Origin: Cellulosimicrobium protaetiae | GTDB taxonomy: Bacteria > Actinomycetota > Actinomycetes > Actinomycetales > Cellulomonadaceae | Direction of reading: 5' to 3' | NCBI RefSeq assembly: GCF_009708005.2 | Contig: NZ_CP052757.1 | Location: 1,550,001-1,614,000, forward strand | Length of the DNA: 64,000 nucleotides | Shown: positions 27,773 through 59,536 of the stretch, in pieces | Layout of the letters: every line of letters begins with the position of its first letter | How positions within the stretch are numbered: the stretch's first letter is position 1 | Notes under the pieces: generated by a model | Database searches by the model: none | What the model was told of the DNA's origin: nothing | What the model saw: only the letters and a program-made list of their open reading frames with translations | Position numbers and translations under genes: made by a program

Positions 27773-27851
27773 GCCGTCGGACGTAGCGCGCCGGGTCGGG
27801 TCCGCGGTCCTGCACCGAAGGGCACGCGGACCAGGGCGAGCGAGCAGCTGA

Positions 27852-27956
27852 GGACGGGACGGGCGGACGGGGCGACGGGTCGTGGCGGGCCTGGCGGGAG
27901 CCGCGAGGCACGAGCGGCGGATGGTAGACCCGTCGCCCCGTCCGCCCGTCCCGTCC
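27852..27956. repeat. Hairpin element copy 1 (conserved loop, variant stem)
   Basis: Arms 27852-27880 and 27928-27956 form a perfect 29-bp stem around a 47-base loop. The loop (GGCCTGGCGGGAGCCGCGAG ... CGAGCGGCGGATGG) is nearly identical to those at 37650-37695 (inverted) and 58121-58166, but the stem sequence is wholly different. It lies between a DUF348/G5 gene and metG, 68 bp before metG, and has no flanking 21-bp arrays. It could end the upstream transcript. Confidence 0.85.
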
Positions 27957-36575: not shown

Positions 36576-37522
36576 CACCCCCGCCACCGCCGAGCATCGC
36601 CCTCGCGCCGCCCCCGTCCGTCCGCGTGCGCGCACCCGGCAAGGTCAACCTCTCGCTGCGGGTCGGGGCGCTGCAGGACGACGGCTACCACCCCCTCGTG
36701 ACGATCTTCCAGGCGGTCGGGCTCAGCGAGGACGTCGTCGCGCACCAGGTGCCGCCCGGCTCGGGCGTCTCGCTGAGCGTGACCGGTCTCCAGGCCGACG
36801 CCGTGCCGACCGACGAGACGAACCTCGCGTGGCGGGCCGCCGTCGCGCTCGCCGAGCACGTCGGAGTCGACCCCGACGTGCGGCTCGAGATCCACAAGGA
36901 GGTCCCCGTCGCAGGGGGCATGGCGGGCGGCTCCGCCGACGCCGCGGCCGCGCTCGTCGCGTGCGACGCGCTGTGGGAGGCCGGGGTGTCGCGTGCGGAC
37001 CTCGTCCGCATCGCCGCGGGGCTCGGCGCCGACGTCGCGTTCGGGCTCGTGGGCCACACCGCCGTCGGGACGGGCCGGGGCGACGTGCTCACGCCCGCGA
37101 TGACGCGCGGGGAGTTCCACTGGGTCTTCGCGGTCCAGGCCGAGGGCCTGTCGACCGCGCAGGTCTACCGGACGTACGACGAGACCGTCGGAGGCCCGGC
37201 CGAGCTCGACCTCACCGAGGACACCGCGCTCATGCAGGCGCTGCGCGCCGGCGACGCCGTCGGCCTCGGGCAGGTGCTGCGCAACGACCTCCAGGGCCCC
37301 GCGCTCGCCCTGCGCCCCGAGCTGCAGCGCACGATCGACGTCGCGACCGAGGCCGGCGCGCTCGGTGCCGTCGTGTCCGGATCCGGCCCGACCGTCGCCG
37401 CCCTCGCGCGCAGCCGCCAGCACGCGCTCGCGATCGCCGCGTCGTGGACCGCGAACGACGCGTGCGACACCGTCTGGTGCACCACCGCCCCCGCCGCCGG
37501 CGCCCGCGTGGTCGCCCACTGA
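36572..37522 (+). CDS. ispE: 4-diphosphocytidyl-2-C-methyl-D-erythritol kinase
   Basis: 316 aa GHMP kinase of the MEP isoprenoid pathway. Substrate motif [17 protein letters not shown] loop [19 protein letters not shown], then [20 protein letters not shown] and C-terminal [17 protein letters not shown] 36572 overlaps the rsmA stop (GTGA), so the two are coupled. A 21-bp repeat array begins 2 bp after the stop codon. Confidence 0.95.
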
Positions 37523-37523
37523 C

Positions 37524-37590
37524 GGTCGCGCGAGATAGAACCCTGGTCGCGCGAGGTAGAACCCTGGTCGGCCGAGGTAGAACCCTGGTT
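37524..37590 (+). repeat. 21-bp tandem array, forward (A)
   Basis: Units start at 37537, 37558 and 37579 after a partial one: AGAACCCTGGTC followed by GCGCGAGGT or GGCCGAGGT. Spacing is exactly 21 bp, two helical turns. Confidence 0.85.
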
Positions 37591-37625
37591 CTTGTGCCCG
37601 ACGGCGCGTGGCTGGGTGGGGTGGT

Positions 37626-37719
37626 CGGGGTGGGTGGTGGTGCCGCGTCTACCATCCGCCGCTCGTTCCTCGCGGCTCCCGCCAGGCCTGACCACGACGC
37701 GGCACCACCACCCACCCCG
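37626..37719 (-). repeat. Hairpin element copy 2 (inverted)
   Basis: Perfect 24-bp stem (37626-37649 with 37696-37719) and a 46-base loop that is the reverse complement of the loops at 27881 and 58121 with 1-4 changes. Similarity to copy 3 extends past the stem on both sides (about 37594-37780). Confidence 0.88.
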
Positions 37720-37963
37720 CCCGGCTTCGTCTCACCCTCGGCGTCGCTCACCTGGGCGACTACCCGCGGTGTCGGGTCCTCCCATCCCGTCCCGTCCCGC
37801 GCGTCGGTGCCGGGCCGTGTCGGGCCGGCGCCGAGCGGTAGGTCGGTCGGGCCGCGGCCTGCCTGGTCGACACCGGGACCGCCTAACCTGATCAGAGGCC
37901 GCGTGACCCGGGCGATCCGACCGCAGCACGGGGCCGTCGTCAGGCAGATCTACGGCTCTTCCC

Positions 37964-38104
37964 CGCGCGACCAGGGTTCTACCTCACGCGACCAGGGTTC
38001 CATTTCGCGTAGTCAGGGTTCTATTTCGCGCGACCAGGGTTCTCCCTCGCGCCACCGGGGTTCTGCTTCGACGGGCCAGGGGTCCCTCGCGCGACCACGG
38101 TTCT
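37964..38104 (-). repeat. 21-bp tandem array, reverse (A')
   Basis: Seven units read on the minus strand as AGAACCCTGGTC + GCGCG...; unit ends on the plus strand fall at 37980, 38001, 38022, 38043, 38064, 38085 and 38104, i.e. 21-bp steps except the last (19). Confidence 0.85.
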
Positions 38105-38149: not shown

Positions 38150-39178
38150 CTATCGGGTGTGCTCGCGGAGCCAGGCGAGCTGGCGGGCGAAGCGGTAGGC
38201 CTGGCCGCCCTCGTGCTCGTTGAAGCGGTAGACGTCGATCGCGCGCTCGACGCGCTCCGAGCCGTCGGCGCCGGTGGCCCAGCCGTTGTAGGCCGCGTAG
38301 ACGGTGGACGGCGGGCAGACGGGGTCCATGAGCGCCACGGAGAACAGGCCGGGCGCGGTCGCGCGGCGGGCGAGGCTCGCGCCGTCGAGGTAGGAGAGGG
38401 TGCGGAAGACGACGTCCTCGTGCTCGCGGTGGACGGCGAGGTAGCGCGTGATCTCGGAGTACGGGGCGCGGTCGGTGATCTCGACGGCGCGGCGGTAGTG
38501 GCTCAGGAACGGGACGTCGGGCATCGCGGCGACGAGGCCGTCGGACAGGCCGGCGACGGCGATCGTCAGGCCGCCGCCCTGGCTCGCGCCGGTCACGGCG
38601 ACGCGCGCAGGGTCGATCCCGTCGACCGCACGGACGGCGTCGACCGCACGGACGGCGTCGGTGATCACTCGGCGGTAGTAGTGCTCGTGCGGGTCGAGGA
38701 TGCCGCGCGTGAGGTAGCCCGGGGTGGCGGGGCCCGAACCGACCGGGTCGGGGGTGTCGCCGCCCGCGCCCCAGCCGCTGCCCTGGCCGCGCGTGTCGAC
38801 CACCAGGTGCGCGTACCCCGCGCTCGCCCACACCAGGTGCTCGTGCGGCAGGCCGCGCCCACCCCCGTACCCCAGGTACTCGACGACGGCGGGGAGCGGT
38901 GCGCCACCCCCGGCCGCCGCCGCGCGTGCGGCCGCGGCCGGCCGCACGAGCCAGCCCTTGACCGGCTGGCCATGGAAGCCCGGGAACGTGACGTCGTCGA
39001 CGACGACCGTCTCCAGCCCGGCGTCGACGCGCTCGAGGCGGACGGTCTCGGCGAGGTCGCCGCCCGCTGCGCGGGACTCCGCGAGCGTCCGTGCCCAGAA
39101 CGCGTCGAGGTCGGCGGGCTCGTCGAGCGTGGGAGCGTAGGCCTCGAGCTCGGCGAGGGGCAGGTCGAAGAGCGGCAC
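38150..39178 (-). CDS. Acetyl xylan esterase/cephalosporin C deacetylase (CE7)
   Basis: 342 aa alpha/beta hydrolase of the AXE1 family, which removes acetyl groups from xylo-oligosaccharides and related esters. Family markers: YAPTLDEPADLDAFW at the N-terminus, GYGGGRGLPHEHLVWASAGYAHLVVDTRGQGS, nucleophile GASQGGG and a late catalytic His in FNEHEGG. No signal peptide, so intracellular. An in-frame 18-bp tandem duplication (near 38625-38660) encodes AVRAVD twice. GTG 39178 follows GGAGG. It is divergent from the GH43-like gene, in the LacI-boxed locus. Confidence 0.88.
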   Translation of the reverse strand: MPLFDLPLAELEAYAPTLDEPADLDAFWARTLAESRAAGGDLAETVRLERVDAGLETVVVDDVTFPGFHGQPVKGWLVRPAAAARAAAAGGGAPLPAVVEYLGYGGGRGLPHEHLVWASAGYAHLVVDTRGQGSGWGAGGDTPDPVGSGPATPGYLTRGILDPHEHYYRRVITDAVRAVDAVRAVDGIDPARVAVTGASQGGGLTIAVAGLSDGLVAAMPDVPFLSHYRRAVEITDRAPYSEITRYLAVHREHEDVVFRTLSYLDGASLARRATAPGLFSVALMDPVCPPSTVYAAYNGWATGADGSERVERAIDVYRFNEHEGGQAYRFARQLAWLREHTR

Positions 39179-54472: not shown

Positions 54473-55769
54473 GGTCTCAACTGGTCATCGCAACATCCTG
54501 ATTCGAGGGGTGTTTTCGGATGGTGCGTGGTGGGGTGTCGGTGCCGCGGCAGTGGCGGCGGGAGTTCTGGCGGGCGTTCGTCGATGGCGTGCCTGTGGTC
54601 GCGGCGGCCGCGGGGGTGGGCGTGTCGACCCGCACGGTGCAGGCCTGGATCGCTGAGTCTGGCGGGGTGCCTGATATCGATCTCGCCGCGCCCACGGGCC
54701 GGTTCGTGTCGTTCGAAGAACGCGAGCGGATGGCGTTGCTGCGTGCCGAGGGTCATTCGTACGCGGCGATCGGGCGGCGGCTGGGCCGTCCACGCTCGAC
54801 GATCTGGCGTGAGTTGACCAACCCGGGCCGGCGGGCGAGCGATGGTCGGTATGTGCCCTCGGTCGCGCAGGCCCACCGCGACCGGCAGGCCGCGCGTCCC
54901 AAACAGGATCGGCGCAAGCTCGCGCTCGACCCGCGCCTGGCGGGCTATGTCTGCGACCGGCTGGACGGCACCGTGCGACCGGACAGCCGCCGCGCACGGG
55001 TGTGGAGCCCGCAGCAGATCGCGAACCGCCTCCCGGTCGACTTCCCCGATGATGAGTCGATGCGGATCAGTCACGAGGCGATCTATCAGGCGTTGTATGT
55101 CCAGGGCCGTGGCGGGCTGCGCGCCGAGCTGCACACCGCGCTGCGGACCGGACGCGCCCGCCGCCGCCCTCGGGCCCAGGCCCGCACCAAGCGTCAGGGG
55201 CAACGCCTGCTACCGCCCGATGTCCTGATCAGCGAACGCCCGGCCGAGATCGCCGACCGCGCCGTGCCGGGCCACTGGGAGGGCGATCTGATCATCGGTG
55301 CCGGCAACAAGTCCGCGATCGGGACCCTGGTCGAGCGCAGCACCCGGTTCGTGATGCTGCTGCACCTGCCGCACGGCTACGCCGCCGAGCAGGTCGCAGA
55401 AGCGATGCGGACCAAGATCCGGGCCCTGCCCGAGCACCTACGACGCACCCTCACCTGGGACCGGGGCCGAGAGATGACACCGAACGTCGGCATCGACATC
55501 GGATTCACCGATCCCATCGACCTGTTCTTCTGCGACCCGCACGCACCCTGGCAGCGCGGCAGCAACGAGAACACCAACGGGCTCCTACGCCAGTACTACC
55601 CCAAAGGCACCGACCTGTCCGTGCACCCCGCATCCGACCTCGAAGACGTCGCAGACGCCCTCAACACCCGACCCCGCCAAACCCTCGGCTGGGCCACCCC
55701 CGCCGAGAAGCTCGCCGCGCTACTCTCACCAACCTGACCAACCCGATGTTGCGATGACCGGTTGAGACC
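54473..55769 (+). mobile_element. IS30-family insertion sequence, intact
   Basis: 1297 bp bounded by 25-bp terminal inverted repeats: GGTCTCAACTGGTCATCGCA at the left (54473-54497) and its complement at the right (55745-55769), with one mismatch. One transposase gene fills it. No target duplication is evident: GGC before the left end, AAG after the right. The right end directly abuts a 21-bp repeat array. Confidence 0.92.
54520..55737 (+). CDS. IS30-family transposase
   Basis: 405 aa, apparently intact. Two N-terminal HTH regions (VAAAAGVGVSTRTVQAWI and YAAIGRRLGRPRSTIWREL) and an integrase core with D256 (GHWEGDLI), D314 (LTWDRG) and E350 (GSNENTNGLLRQYYPKG), the IS30 DDE triad. Codon third positions are less extreme than in neighbouring genes, consistent with recent arrival. 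ATG 54520 lies 22 bp inside the left inverted repeat. Confidence 0.95.
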   Translation: MVRGGVSVPRQWRREFWRAFVDGVPVVAAAAGVGVSTRTVQAWIAESGGVPDIDLAAPTGRFVSFEERERMALLRAEGHSYAAIGRRLGRPRSTIWRELTNPGRRASDGRYVPSVAQAHRDRQAARPKQDRRKLALDPRLAGYVCDRLDGTVRPDSRRARVWSPQQIANRLPVDFPDDESMRISHEAIYQALYVQGRGGLRAELHTALRTGRARRRPRAQARTKRQGQRLLPPDVLISERPAEIADRAVPGHWEGDLIIGAGNKSAIGTLVERSTRFVMLLHLPHGYAAEQVAEAMRTKIRALPEHLRRTLTWDRGREMTPNVGIDIGFTDPIDLFFCDPHAPWQRGSNENTNGLLRQYYPKGTDLSVHPASDLEDVADALNTRPRQTLGWATPAEKLAALLSPT

Positions 55770-55770
55770 A

Positions 55771-55893
55771 AGAACCCCGGTACCCCGAGGTAGAAGCCTG
55801 GTCCCGCGAGAGAGAACCGTGGTCCCGCGAGAGAGAACCGTGGTCGCGCGAGGTAGGGCGGTGGTTCGCGAGGGAGAACCCTGGGAGCGCCGG
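55771..55893 (+). repeat. 21-bp tandem array B, forward, next to IS30
   Basis: Units start at 55771, 55792, 55813, 55834, 55855 and 55875; AGAACCGTGGTC + CCGCGAGAG is the commonest form. It begins 1 bp after the IS end and stops 2 bp before the stop codon of the convergent MFS gene. No hairpin or reverse array is present, so this looks like half of a composite element. Confidence 0.85.
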
Positions 55894-57354: not shown

Positions 57355-57852
57355 TCAGTCGTCGAACTGTCCTCCGACTGTACGCAGGAGCGCCGCGAGC
57401 GCAGGGCGGCCGCCGGGCTCGAGCGCGTCGAGGATGCGGGCCTCCACCGCGAGCAGGTCGGTCATCGCCGTGTCCACGCGTTCCAGTCCCTCGGGCGTGA
57501 GCTCGACGAGCACACCGCGCCGGTCGTCGGGGGACCGGCGGCGCACGACGAGCCCGCGCTCCTCCAGCCGGTCGATGCGGTTCGTCATGGTCCCGCTCGT
57601 CACGAGCGTCTGCGTGACGAGGGCCCCGGGCGAGAGCCGGTACGGCTCGCCGGCCCGCCGCAGCGCGGACAGGACGTCGAACTCCCACGTCTCGAGGTGC
57701 CCCCGCGCGAACGCGGTCCGGCGCGCGCGGTCGAGGTGCCGGGCGAGGCGGTCGACGCGCGAGAAGACGGTGAGCGGCTCGACGTCGAGGTCTGGCCGCT
57801 CGCGCTGCCAGGCCGCGACGATGCGGTCGACCTCGTCCTCGTGCTGCTGCTC
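57355..57852 (-). CDS. MarR-family regulator
   Basis: 165 aa. Winged helix LETWEFDVLSALRRAGEPYRLSPGALVTQTLVTSGTMTNRIDRLEERGLVVRRRSPDDRRGVLVELTPEG with the DRR wing. First gene of a two-gene operon with the MFS transporter. ATG 57852 is preferred; an upstream in-frame ATG would place the start inside the operator. A MarR-type box lies 22 bp upstream. Confidence 0.9.
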   Translation of the reverse strand, partial: EQQHEDEVDRIVAAWQRERPDLDVEPLTVFSRVDRLARHLDRARRTAFARGHLETWEFDVLSALRRAGEPYRLSPGALVTQTLVTSGTMTNRIDRLEERGLVVRRRSPDDRRGVLVELTPEGLERVDTAMTDLLAVEARILDALEPGGRPALAALLRTVGGQFDD

Positions 57853-57873
57853 CATGACGCGAGGGTACTCGAT

Positions 57874-57895
57874 ATGTCTCGACATCAAGACTCTT
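57874..57895. promoter_or_regulatory. MarR-type operator
   Basis: TCTCGACATCAAGA (57874-57887), nearly palindromic, overlaps the perfect palindrome ATCAAG-ACT-CTTGAT (57881-57895). It lies 22-43 bp before the MarR start, in a locally AT-rich stretch. Confidence 0.6.
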
Positions 57896-57919
57896 GATGC
57901 CCGCCCGCCTAGCTGTAGC

Positions 57920-58011
57920 CGGCCGAGAGAACCGCGGTCGCGCGAGAGAGAACCGTGGTCGCGCGAAGTAGAACCGTGGTCAGCCGAGGTAGAACCCTGG
58001 TCTCCCCGAGT
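57920..58011 (+). repeat. 21-bp tandem array, forward (C)
   Basis: Units start at 57928, 57949, 57970 and 57991: AGAACCGTGGTC followed by GCGCGARRK-type ends. Exact 21-bp steps. Confidence 0.85.
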
Positions 58012-58096
58012 GCGGCACGCAGGGCGAGGCGAGGACGATCCTGGCACCGCGGGCAGTCGCCCGGGTGCGCCAAGACCAGGGTGGGACGACGCCGGG

Positions 58097-58190
58097 CGGG
58101 GTGGGTGGTGGTGCCGCGTCGTGGTCGGGCCTGGCGGGAGCCGCGAGGAACGAGCGGCGGATGGCAGACGCGGCACCACCACCCACCCCG
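58097..58190 (+). repeat. Hairpin element copy 3
   Basis: Perfect 24-bp stem (58097-58120 with 58167-58190) and a 46-base loop. Stem and loop match copy 2 almost exactly; the loop alone matches copy 1. A small GCCGC/GCGGC stem lies inside the loop. Confidence 0.88.
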
Positions 58191-58213
58191 ACCACCCAGC
58201 GCGACCACGCGCC

Positions 58214-58324
58214 GTCGGGCACGACCACGGTTCTACGTCGCGAGACCACGGTTCTACCTCGGCAGACCACGGTTCTACTTCGGCCCACCAGTGTTCTGTC
58301 TCGTGCGACCGGGGTTCTCCCTCG
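58214..58324 (-). repeat. 21-bp tandem array, reverse (C')
   Basis: Units on the plus strand end in TTCT at 58234, 58255, 58276, 58297 and 58318, exact 21-bp steps. It finishes about 4 bp before the stop codon of the minus-strand permease. Confidence 0.85.
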
Positions 58325-58327
58325 GCG

Positions 58328-59536
58328 TCAGGTGGTGCGGAGGGCGTCCTTGAGGCGGACGCGGGCTCCGGTACGCAGGACCGCGTTGGAGTAGATCTTC
58401 GCGGCGAGCCACACGAGGACCGGGATGACGACGATCGACAGGCCGAGCGCGAGGAGGGCCTCCCAGGTCTCGGCGCTGCCGAGCGCGATGCGCACGGGCA
58501 TGAGGAGCGGCGAGCACAGGGGGACGTACGACAGCCACACGACGAGCGGGTTGTCCGGGGCCCACGGCGCGACGGACACGCCGACGATGTACGGCACGAC
58601 CATGAGGAACGTGACGGGCGTGGTCACCGCCCCGACGTCCTCCTGGCGCGAGACGAGCGCGCCGAGCCCGGCCATGAGGAGCGCGTAGCTGACGAACCCG
58701 ACGACGAACCAGACGAGTGCCCAGACGGCAGCGGTGCCGAGGTCGATGGTCGACGTGTCGACCAGACCGAGGCCGAGCGCGGTGCCGACGCCCGCGAGCA
58801 CGACGAGCGCGACCTGCCCGAGCCCGACGAGCCCGATGCCGAGCACCTTGCCCGCCATGAGCTGCCAGGGCCGGACGGTCGAGAGCAGGAGCTCGACGAC
58901 GCGGCTCGTCTTCTCCTCGACGACGCCCTGCGCGATGAGCTGCCCGCTGATCATGATGGCCATGAAGAGCAGGATGCCGGTGACGAGGCCGGTGACGTAG
59001 CGGGTCGGGTCGAACTCGCTGGGCTCGCCGATCGTGCGGACGGTCGGCGCGGCCGTCGCGACGTCGCCCGCGACCTGGGCGGGGTCGCCGCCGAGGCTCG
59101 CGACGGCGTCGGACAGCGCGGTCTGCTGGGCGAGGGTCGTGAAGACCGCCGTGAGACCGGGGGAGAGCTCGGTGTCCACGACGACGGTGGGGGCGTCGGC
59201 CGTCCCGGTGACGAGAGCGTCGAGATCCCCGTCCTGTACCTGGGCCTCGCCTGCGGCGTCGTCCGCGACGTCGACCGTCTCGACCTCGGTCCCGAGCGTG
59301 CTGCCCGTGGTCTCGATCGACTCCGCGAGGGCCGACGTCTCGGGCGTGACGCCCACGCGCTCGGCGGTCGGGCCGGACGAGCTCGCGGCGTTGAGCACGA
59401 ACCCGCCGAGCACGACGGCGCCGACGAGGATCACCGTCAGCCACACGAACGACTTCGAGCGCAGCCGCGTCATGATCTCGCGGCTCGCGACGAGGCGGAT
59501 GGCGCCCCAGGACGTCAACGAGGTTCCCGTGCTCAT
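58328..59536 (-). CDS. ABC-2 family permease (NatB-like)
   Basis: 402 aa. One N-terminal helix (FVWLTVILVGAVVLGGFVL), a ~150-residue extracytoplasmic domain, then five to six C-terminal helices starting YVTGLVTGILLFMAIMISGQLIAQGVVEEKTSRVVELLLSTVRPWQLMAGKVLGIG, the NatB/YhaP signature. It overlaps the ATPase stop by 4 bp. It probably exports ions or small molecules with that ATPase. A composite repeat element begins right after its stop. Confidence 0.9.
   Translation of the reverse strand: MSTGTSLTSWGAIRLVASREIMTRLRSKSFVWLTVILVGAVVLGGFVLNAASSSGPTAERVGVTPETSALAESIETTGSTLGTEVETVDVADDAAGEAQVQDGDLDALVTGTADAPTVVVDTELSPGLTAVFTTLAQQTALSDAVASLGGDPAQVAGDVATAAPTVRTIGEPSEFDPTRYVTGLVTGILLFMAIMISGQLIAQGVVEEKTSRVVELLLSTVRPWQLMAGKVLGIGLVGLGQVALVVLAGVGTALGLGLVDTSTIDLGTAAVWALVWFVVGFVSYALLMAGLGALVSRQEDVGAVTTPVTFLMVVPYIVGVSVAPWAPDNPLVVWLSYVPLCSPLLMPVRIALGSAETWEALLALGLSIVVIPVLVWLAAKIYSNAVLRTGARVRLKDALRTT

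Follow-up and report, generated by a model that had tools for sequence, protein, structure and literature searches.

The window, i.e. the entire 64-kb stretch of DNA analysed here, harbours two composite elements (A and C), a one-armed array (B) and a hairpin devoid of arrays (Table 1). As proposed by the sequence-only reading, A and C share one layout in opposite orientation: 3–4 forward units, a hairpin with a 24-bp stem and 46 nt between its arms, and 5–7 reverse units. The coordinates confirm this arrangement, with hairpin arms of 27 nt containing one mismatch (24 bp perfect) and forward cores beginning at 37537, 37558 and 37579 (A) and at 57928, 57949, 57970 and 57991 (C). Each unit comprises a 12-bp core and a 9-bp semi-conserved stretch, and the 21-bp step claimed for almost every case recurs throughout both elements, the sole exception being a step of 19 bp in the reverse array of A. 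Genes were called with a purpose-built codon-usage scorer trained on the window. Element A has a GHMP kinase gene (36626-37522) on its left and, on its right, an acetyl xylan esterase-like gene (38150-39178, -) whose 3′ end faces it. Element B separates an rve-domain transposase-like gene from an MFS gene, both with their 3′ ends towards it. On the left of element C, a MarR-family gene (57355-57855, -) starts 72 bases from the forward array; on its right, an ABC-2 permease gene (58328-59536, -) has its stop beside the reverse array. The rve-domain gene (54853-55737) scored 32.5 bits against a cut-off of 32.6. Arrays had been claimed to start within 2–4 bp of a stop codon at three of five junctions, which does not apply to the AGAACC core: 14 bases separate the GHMP kinase stop from the first core (A, left), and the other distances are 45 (A, right), 33 (B, left) and 9 bases (C, right). 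The array-free hairpin is located between a G5-domain gene and a methionyl-tRNA synthetase gene; at the same site, one relative (G012) carries a family member with a different stem and two others have hairpin-less spacers of 769 bp (G011) and 60 bp (G013).

Table 1. Positions of arrays and hairpins within the 64-kb window
Feature	Position	Strand	Description
Array-free conserved-core hairpin (L265:17850-17954)	27850..27954	-	stem differs from A/C
Element A, forward array	37537..37590	+	3 units, 21 bp each
Element A, hairpin	37623..37722	+ (model strand)	24-bp perfect stem, conserved 46-nt apical domain
Element A, reverse array	37969..38104	-	about 7 units
Element B, one-armed forward array	55771..55884	+	5.5 units, without hairpin
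Element C, forward array	57928..58002	+	4 units
Element C, hairpin	58094..58193	-	family and geometry of A, opposite orientation
Element C, reverse array	58223..58318	-	5 units

Further copies, the lack of which had been named as fatal to the sequence-only reading, are clearly present in the genome containing the window (source genome). A two-unit pattern matched 133 times in forward and 121 times in reverse orientation, the backward-pattern control 0 times in both. At least 35 hairpins are at least 91 % identical over the full 100 nt and 5 more are weaker, a lower bound as 40 of 101 candidates were scored. Independently of any pattern, repeated intergenic 8-mers in 400 kb of the source genome have spacing peaks at 21 (233 pairs), 42 (106) and 63 bp (51; next best 38). 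Pairs of AGAACC-type units were detected in 12 of 59 genomes (source genome counted), all 12 belonging to Cellulosimicrobium (12 of the 17 genomes of the genus), at 0 to 131 forward copies per genome within the genus, the places being, for at least some genomes, those among the matches listed. Similarity to the hairpin (E 0.001; at most 15 matches per genome, counts thus being lower bounds) was found in all 17 genomes of the genus and in 8 of 42 others, mostly weakly. The loop pattern recovered at least 120 stretches from the species collection, 111 titled Cellulosimicrobium and 9 otherwise. Three QAPD records with the hairpin (L114, L131, L154) are titled Sphaerisporangium cinnabarinum ATCC 31213, a title that looks wrong. 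Samples of 80 kb from five further genera of the family yielded 0, 1, 2, 4 and 9 repeat pairs at steps of 21, 42 and 63 bp, compared with hundreds in 400 kb of the source genome or of G011; judged from these searches, the 21-bp units look genus-specific. Several draft contigs (L098, L104, L118, L128, L130, L149, L150) start about 100 bases or less from a hairpin copy; the element therefore seems to interrupt assembly, and drafts may contain more copies than were counted.

Both arms are present at 25 of 30 hairpin loci of the source genome, with forward left of reverse at all 25, and the same order holds for all five clusters containing both unit orientations. In copies read as +, the last forward core mostly begins 41–46 bp ahead of the hairpin (exceptions L063 and L068), the other array being 30–650 bp distant from it. 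With respect to neighbouring genes, the 30 elements are distributed over 11 convergent, 16 tandem and 1 divergent spacers, a neighbour being missing for 2, and none of the elements contains the midpoint of a called gene. A gene 3′ end is found on at least one side of 27 of the 28 elements with both neighbours called, and in 17 of these 28 one arm faces a 5′ end. The folded strand is co-directional with the far-side gene in 19 of 30 (hand count), i.e. without strong bias.

Location at gene 3′ ends is likewise evident from pattern-independent counts. Repeat pairs (steps 21, 42 and 63 bp together) amount to 33.5, 8.9 and 0.5 per kb of convergent, tandem and divergent spacers, respectively, in the source genome, to 28.5, 3.1 and 2.2 in G011, to 28.0, 1.8 and 0.9 in G012, and to 3.2, 1.4 and 0.4 in G013; all four genomes display the order convergent > tandem > divergent. 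A stem of at least 18 bp (four genomes, composites included) is carried by 36 of 102 spacers between convergent genes, by 32 of 368 between tandem genes and by none of the 171 between divergent genes; the mononucleotide shuffles used as composition control contained no such stem. This distribution indicates that long hairpins mark 3′ ends in Cellulosimicrobium; divergent promoters are avoided. Two 400-kb stretches from two genomes contain 21 array-bearing spacers, 20 of them with a gene 3′ end. When order is set by the first forward and the last reverse unit, these spacers fall into forward-hairpin-reverse (8), forward-reverse (2), one arm without hairpin (9) and one arm with hairpin (2), the full layout being absent from 13 of 21. 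A looser count of single units (10/12 matches) near 313 genes of the source genome is weakly skewed, with 14 downstream and 11 upstream in sense and 7 downstream and 6 upstream in antisense orientation.

Units may also supply the stop codon itself. At 10 of 39 facing 3′ ends (30 hairpin loci of the source genome), the gene ends with the TAG that belongs to the first unit, and a looser rule yields 11 such gene ends; among gene stops in 400 kb of this genome, TGA accounts for 267 and TAG for 44. In the ortholog of strain MP1 (L069; G004:C18 205276-208375), units are translated as C-terminal heptads ARENPGL before a unit-borne TAG terminates the frame. This stop-codon register is common to several species, including L323 of G015 with its TAGTACC units. 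Comparisons of register, of unit shift and of hairpin identity (see below) were made at loci with an ortholog already identified.

Variants of the loop led to hairpins that share the 46-nt apical domain and have unrelated, near-perfect stems. Among 34 members, both sides have changed in 24 of 28 pairs, 85.7 % of paired cells are complementary (65.7 % when shuffled, 43–50 % when slid), and the covariation score is 0.427 (0.113 shuffled, 0.08–0.13 slid); a 5-bp inner helix within the loop covaries as well (3 of 5 pairs). A first clustering gave 40 hairpins, and the 34 resulted from re-clustering after exclusion of rows with N, of L109 (5′ arm missing), of L181 (masked) and of L257 (altered loop), a selection that favours pairing. 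Copying of one arm from its partner at replication could also have generated the covariation. Non-standard pairs flanked by good pairs, read on the model strand, comprise 19 A-C/C-A, 7 G-T/T-G and 17 others in 42 sequences, and 11, 3 and 21, respectively, in the 34-member set; these counts favour the complement of the model strand (GGCGGGAG...GCGGAUGG) as the folded RNA, which is suggestive only.

Model R1 of this family matched 25 of 396 genomes of the order (source genome included), representing 13 of 110 genera, with at least two matches in 17 of the 25; model R2 matched 2 among 396 genomes drawn from the phylum, namely the source genome and one of the same order. Both surveys employed stricter filters and at most 10 matches per genome, rendering the counts lower bounds. 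Within Cellulosimicrobium, the model retrieved 9 hairpins from 400 kb of the source genome (4 of them composites), 4 from 400 kb of G011, 2 from 155 kb of G012 and 0 from 200 kb of G013, and comparison with orthologous sites covered 11 of 15. Rfam 15 covariance models recognized two tRNAs and nothing else at family threshold in the window; element A (E up to 5) gave sub-threshold matches to a microRNA and one Streptomyces sRNA and no family, and 20 distant hairpin loci (E up to 1) gave no match. The hairpin family is a candidate for a new structured, probably mobile element. One member (L258:15143-15305) has about 60 nt extra in its internal loop; these are absent from the G011 ortholog, which displays a compensatory T-A to C-G difference in the stem. 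A recombination site at the internal loop was considered for three clear cases (L257, L258, L361), which are better read as degeneration.

Mobility of the hairpin family is suggested by copies inside reading frames. While 29 of 37 non-composite or distant hairpins are intergenic (on recount, 15 between convergent and 13 between tandem genes, none between divergent ones, and 1 lacking a neighbour), 8 overlap called genes. In all eight the frame stays open throughout and coding-like sequence is found on one or both sides, the coding score dipping at or near the hairpin in most of them. A profile scan placed parts of one protein on either side of the hairpin at five of the eight loci: LigD in G007 (L316) and G015 (L335), with primase/phosphoesterase domains before and ligase domains after hairpins of opposite orientation relative to the gene; DUF3418 (L363, G372), with profile positions 1-303 before and 304-581 after; NHL repeats (L351, G060); and a P-type ATPase (L361, G175). 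Such in-frame hairpins look like insertions and support mobility, and the family is probably mobile. The proposal of a mobile palindromic element made from the sequence alone is thereby strengthened for the hairpin, while its mobilizing enzyme was not found: none of the 17 genomes of the genus encodes a RAYT / Y1 transposase (PF01797), which was detected in 5 of 14 control genomes, and a RAYT/REP origin was rejected on this ground. A plasmid or phage origin was dismissed as well, the hairpin being absent from the plasmid and phage records searched. Nor did a partner gene emerge beside distant hairpins, since the apparent neighbours of 430-500 aa reflected the 1.5-kb flanks and the protein starts at 15 loci look unrelated by eye.

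At fixed sites, palindromes are exchanged. Inspection by eye of site C in 16 readable genomes revealed the full composite in 5 (G000, G001, G005, G011, G016), hairpin-less arrays or relics in 7 (G002, G006, G008, G010, G012, G013, G015), another palindrome in 3 (G007, G009, G014) and none in G003, the contig of G004 ending there. At site A (17 genomes, by eye), array and hairpin are present in 4 (G000, G001, G005, G006); G010 has degenerate arrays, G004 and G013 have short unit-like pieces, G002, G008, G011 and G016 have another neighbour gene, and nothing was recognized in the remaining 6. Across the 17 genomes, both sites comprise relics, other palindromes or unrelated spacers. The composite hairpin, in turn, is nearly constant: identity is 96.9 % between orthologs (27 pairs, the best-matching hairpin of each locus being taken as the ortholog, a choice that works in favour of orthologs), 96.4 % between paralogs of the source genome (378 pairs, 28 copies) and 96.8 % over all copies of this and other species, versus 67.9 % and 65.9 % for the adjoining 100 nt between orthologs and paralogs, respectively. 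At about 97 % against about 68 %, the hairpin has not followed the divergence of its surroundings and is constrained or homogenized.

The consensus of the units has shifted in whole lineages at sites that stayed in place. At 13 loci with orthologs, A occupies position 4 of the unit in 92 of 94 cases in the source genome, and G does so in 35 of 46 (PW), 38 of 55 (NBRC 15516) and 18 of 30 (funkei U11), MP1 being mixed with 22 A and 21 G of 46. Genome-wide, TAGAGCC pairs (forward + reverse) number 2+1 in the source genome, 67+69 in G005 and 34+28 in G011, and TAGTACC pairs 6+4 in G007, 22+12 in G012, 2+7 in G013 and 18+8 in G015, whereas matches of the latter search in the source genome, and nearly all in G004, are TAGAACC-type units reached via two mismatches. 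None of the three unit types (TAGAACC, TAGAGCC, TAGTACC) was found in G003 and G014. Neighbouring units share alleles above chance, which points to some tandem copying, and gene conversion or renewed spread could have produced the shift. The fixed two-turn step, the inward orientation and the genome-wide change of consensus at fixed sites fit a DNA-binding reader; no such protein was identified for the units.

The reading we tentatively prefer, with a probability of roughly 0.4, is that a mobile palindromic hairpin and arrays of probable protein sites together form a bidirectional 3′-end transcription boundary in Cellulosimicrobium. A dispersed, probably mobile palindromic element with a conserved structured core would supply the central hairpin, which in this genus is joined with 21-bp arrays in a module at gene 3′ ends. 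Whichever side polymerase arrives from, it would encounter the units in one and the same orientation before reaching the hairpin; the latter may act in the RNA as a stop or 3′-end structure, and the units, as sites for a sequence-specific DNA-binding protein on one helix face in two-turn steps, may constitute a polar roadblock. To our knowledge, the ending of transcripts without U-runs in GC-rich actinobacteria is poorly understood. The interpretation given in the sequence-only reading, whose observation was confirmed, is partly supported, each suggested role matching another component. A terminator or insulator agrees with the composites, given their location at 3′ ends, their avoidance of divergent promoters and the other palindromes at the same sites, but less well with the in-frame hairpins and with element C, where terminator-like sites were absent from 57800-58400 and no T-run follows the hairpin. 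A protein-binding platform agrees with the units, considering their fixed step, the lineage-wide shift and arms that are not matched to each other (see below), but no protein was found. In particular, the 8 of 37 in-frame hairpins count against a pure terminator, since a strong one would be intolerable there unless translation masks it; they weaken the boundary reading and strengthen its foremost rival.

According to this rival, which is nearly as likely, the entire composite is purely selfish, being a mobile palindromic repeat (like MITEs, REPs or RPEs) that persists where it is least harmful, i.e. after stops and in protein linkers, the arrays being inherited ends and any effect on transcription incidental. 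The open-frame positions between the phosphoesterase and ligase domains of LigD and within DUF3418, the highly variable copy number within the genus, presence and absence at orthologous sites and the single stem common to 35 composite hairpins of the source genome are all what such an element would leave behind. Less easily accommodated are the lack of a called gene within the 30 elements, of a Y1 transposase in the genus and of the hairpin in plasmid and phage records, and the fact that no clean empty site or target duplication was recognized at sites A and C. The hairpin held near 97 % beside a diverging neighbourhood and the stop-codon register kept in different species also argue against it.

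Gyrase binds BIMEs, and the arrays at gene ends might by analogy serve chromosome organisation as binding sites for gyrase, a nucleoid protein or a recombination factor. Enrichment between convergent genes, 21-bp phasing, scatter over the whole genome and the several partners bound by BIMEs and REPs (PMC2817692) are compatible with this role, which is nonetheless improbable, the conserved hairpin core being left unexplained. Still less probable is a duplex of forward and reverse array RNA as the working part, a giant hairpin per transcript that would terminate transcription or protect the 3′ end: whole elements do form much better folds than shuffled sequences (z -14.1 for C, -9.8 for A), and the predicted structure pairs their arms, but arms are no more alike within than between elements (25 elements of the source genome; z 0.53 for the whole unit, 1.16 for the core, -0.19 for the spacer), the own partner is not more stably paired (permutations as good or better out of 2000: 847 in the source genome with 21 elements, 1937 in MP1 with 9, 1093 in PW with 6, 432 in NBRC 15516 with 7), and 11 of 21 array-bearing spacers have a single arm. 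Arm likeness and duplex energies agree that selection does not act on arm pairing; the RNA pairing of forward with reverse arrays, mentioned as a possibility in the sequence-only reading, is not supported as a selected trait.

Returning to the boundary reading, a more specific form of it, unlikely as it stands, envisages the units as the bacterial equivalent of oriented terminator-protein arrays. At many gene ends, the phased units would be read by a lineage-specific DNA-binding protein that blocks RNA polymerase with polarity, the site consensus (TAGTACC, TAGAGCC or TAGAACC, depending on lineage) would have moved genome-wide in step with that protein, and a domesticated member of a new mobile hairpin family spread over the order would cooperate. 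In Sal-box / TTF-I or Reb1 systems, short oriented protein sites form terminator arrays after the gene end; the present arrays are similarly short, oriented and placed, with a polar roadblock as our proposal, and differ in being bacterial, present at many loci and combined with a hairpin, their protein sites being putative.

Among dispersed bacterial repeats, the REP unit is characterized in PMC3733652 as a palindrome of 20-40 bp that bears a GTAG or CGTC tag. The present elements resemble REPs and BIMEs in being dispersed, extragenic, often located after stop codons and inversely arranged, with some in-gene copies. They differ by a non-palindromic 21-mer unit (GTAG is present, an own palindrome absent by eye) in phased tandem arrays, by the lack of RAYT in the genus and by a separate 100-nt structured hairpin at the centre. 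Rickettsia palindromic elements also reside in-frame within genes, yet belong to another phylum, whereas the copies described here are mostly intergenic and, in one genus, framed by arrays. BOX and Correia-type MITEs are modular, with variable repeat number, stem-loop RNA potential and short terminal repeats; the first three traits recur here, whereas inverted tandem arrays take the place of short terminal repeats and no target duplication was seen, although the inward arrays do correspond to the terminal inverted repeats of MITEs. Tn7-like transposon ends contain several TnsB sites of ~22 bp, comparable to the several near-21-bp sites directed inward at both ends of the composites, which unlike a Tn7-like transposon enclose no called transposase gene. 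The Skipping-rope RNA motif has a long variable stem and a conserved apical domain similar to the present hairpin, and was not matched by element A or the 20 distant loci in the Rfam searches. The hairpins of A and C are GC-rich like classical intrinsic terminators and differ from them by the missing U-run at C, and the arrays differ from CRISPR by having no unique spacers between units. As defining features are lacking or not shown, the element was not filed as REP/BIME, MITE or transposon end; it is a variant of dispersed 3′-end repeats. A literature search (titles and starts of abstracts, with most subscription papers outside its scope) found no paper describing the element, and within this literature the arrays are a genus-specific 3′-end repeat not previously described.

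The elements amount to a large comparative set of 3′-end modules whose covarying core is unmatched in Rfam. Their phased DNA array has changed its consensus across entire lineages while keeping its sites, possibly a case of protein-site co-evolution over many loci. They furthermore supply testable terminator or boundary sites together with a hairpin element that also resides in-frame in genes such as ligD. A second hairpin family with a variable perfect stem and a conserved loop of ~80 nt, GCTCGGG...GCGCCGTCACC...GACGCCC-CTTCGCATCC, was noticed by eye at similar sites; it occurs in the source genome, G011 and G012, the places being 1517442-1518516 of the source genome (L262), L292:236-934 and the G012 ortholog.
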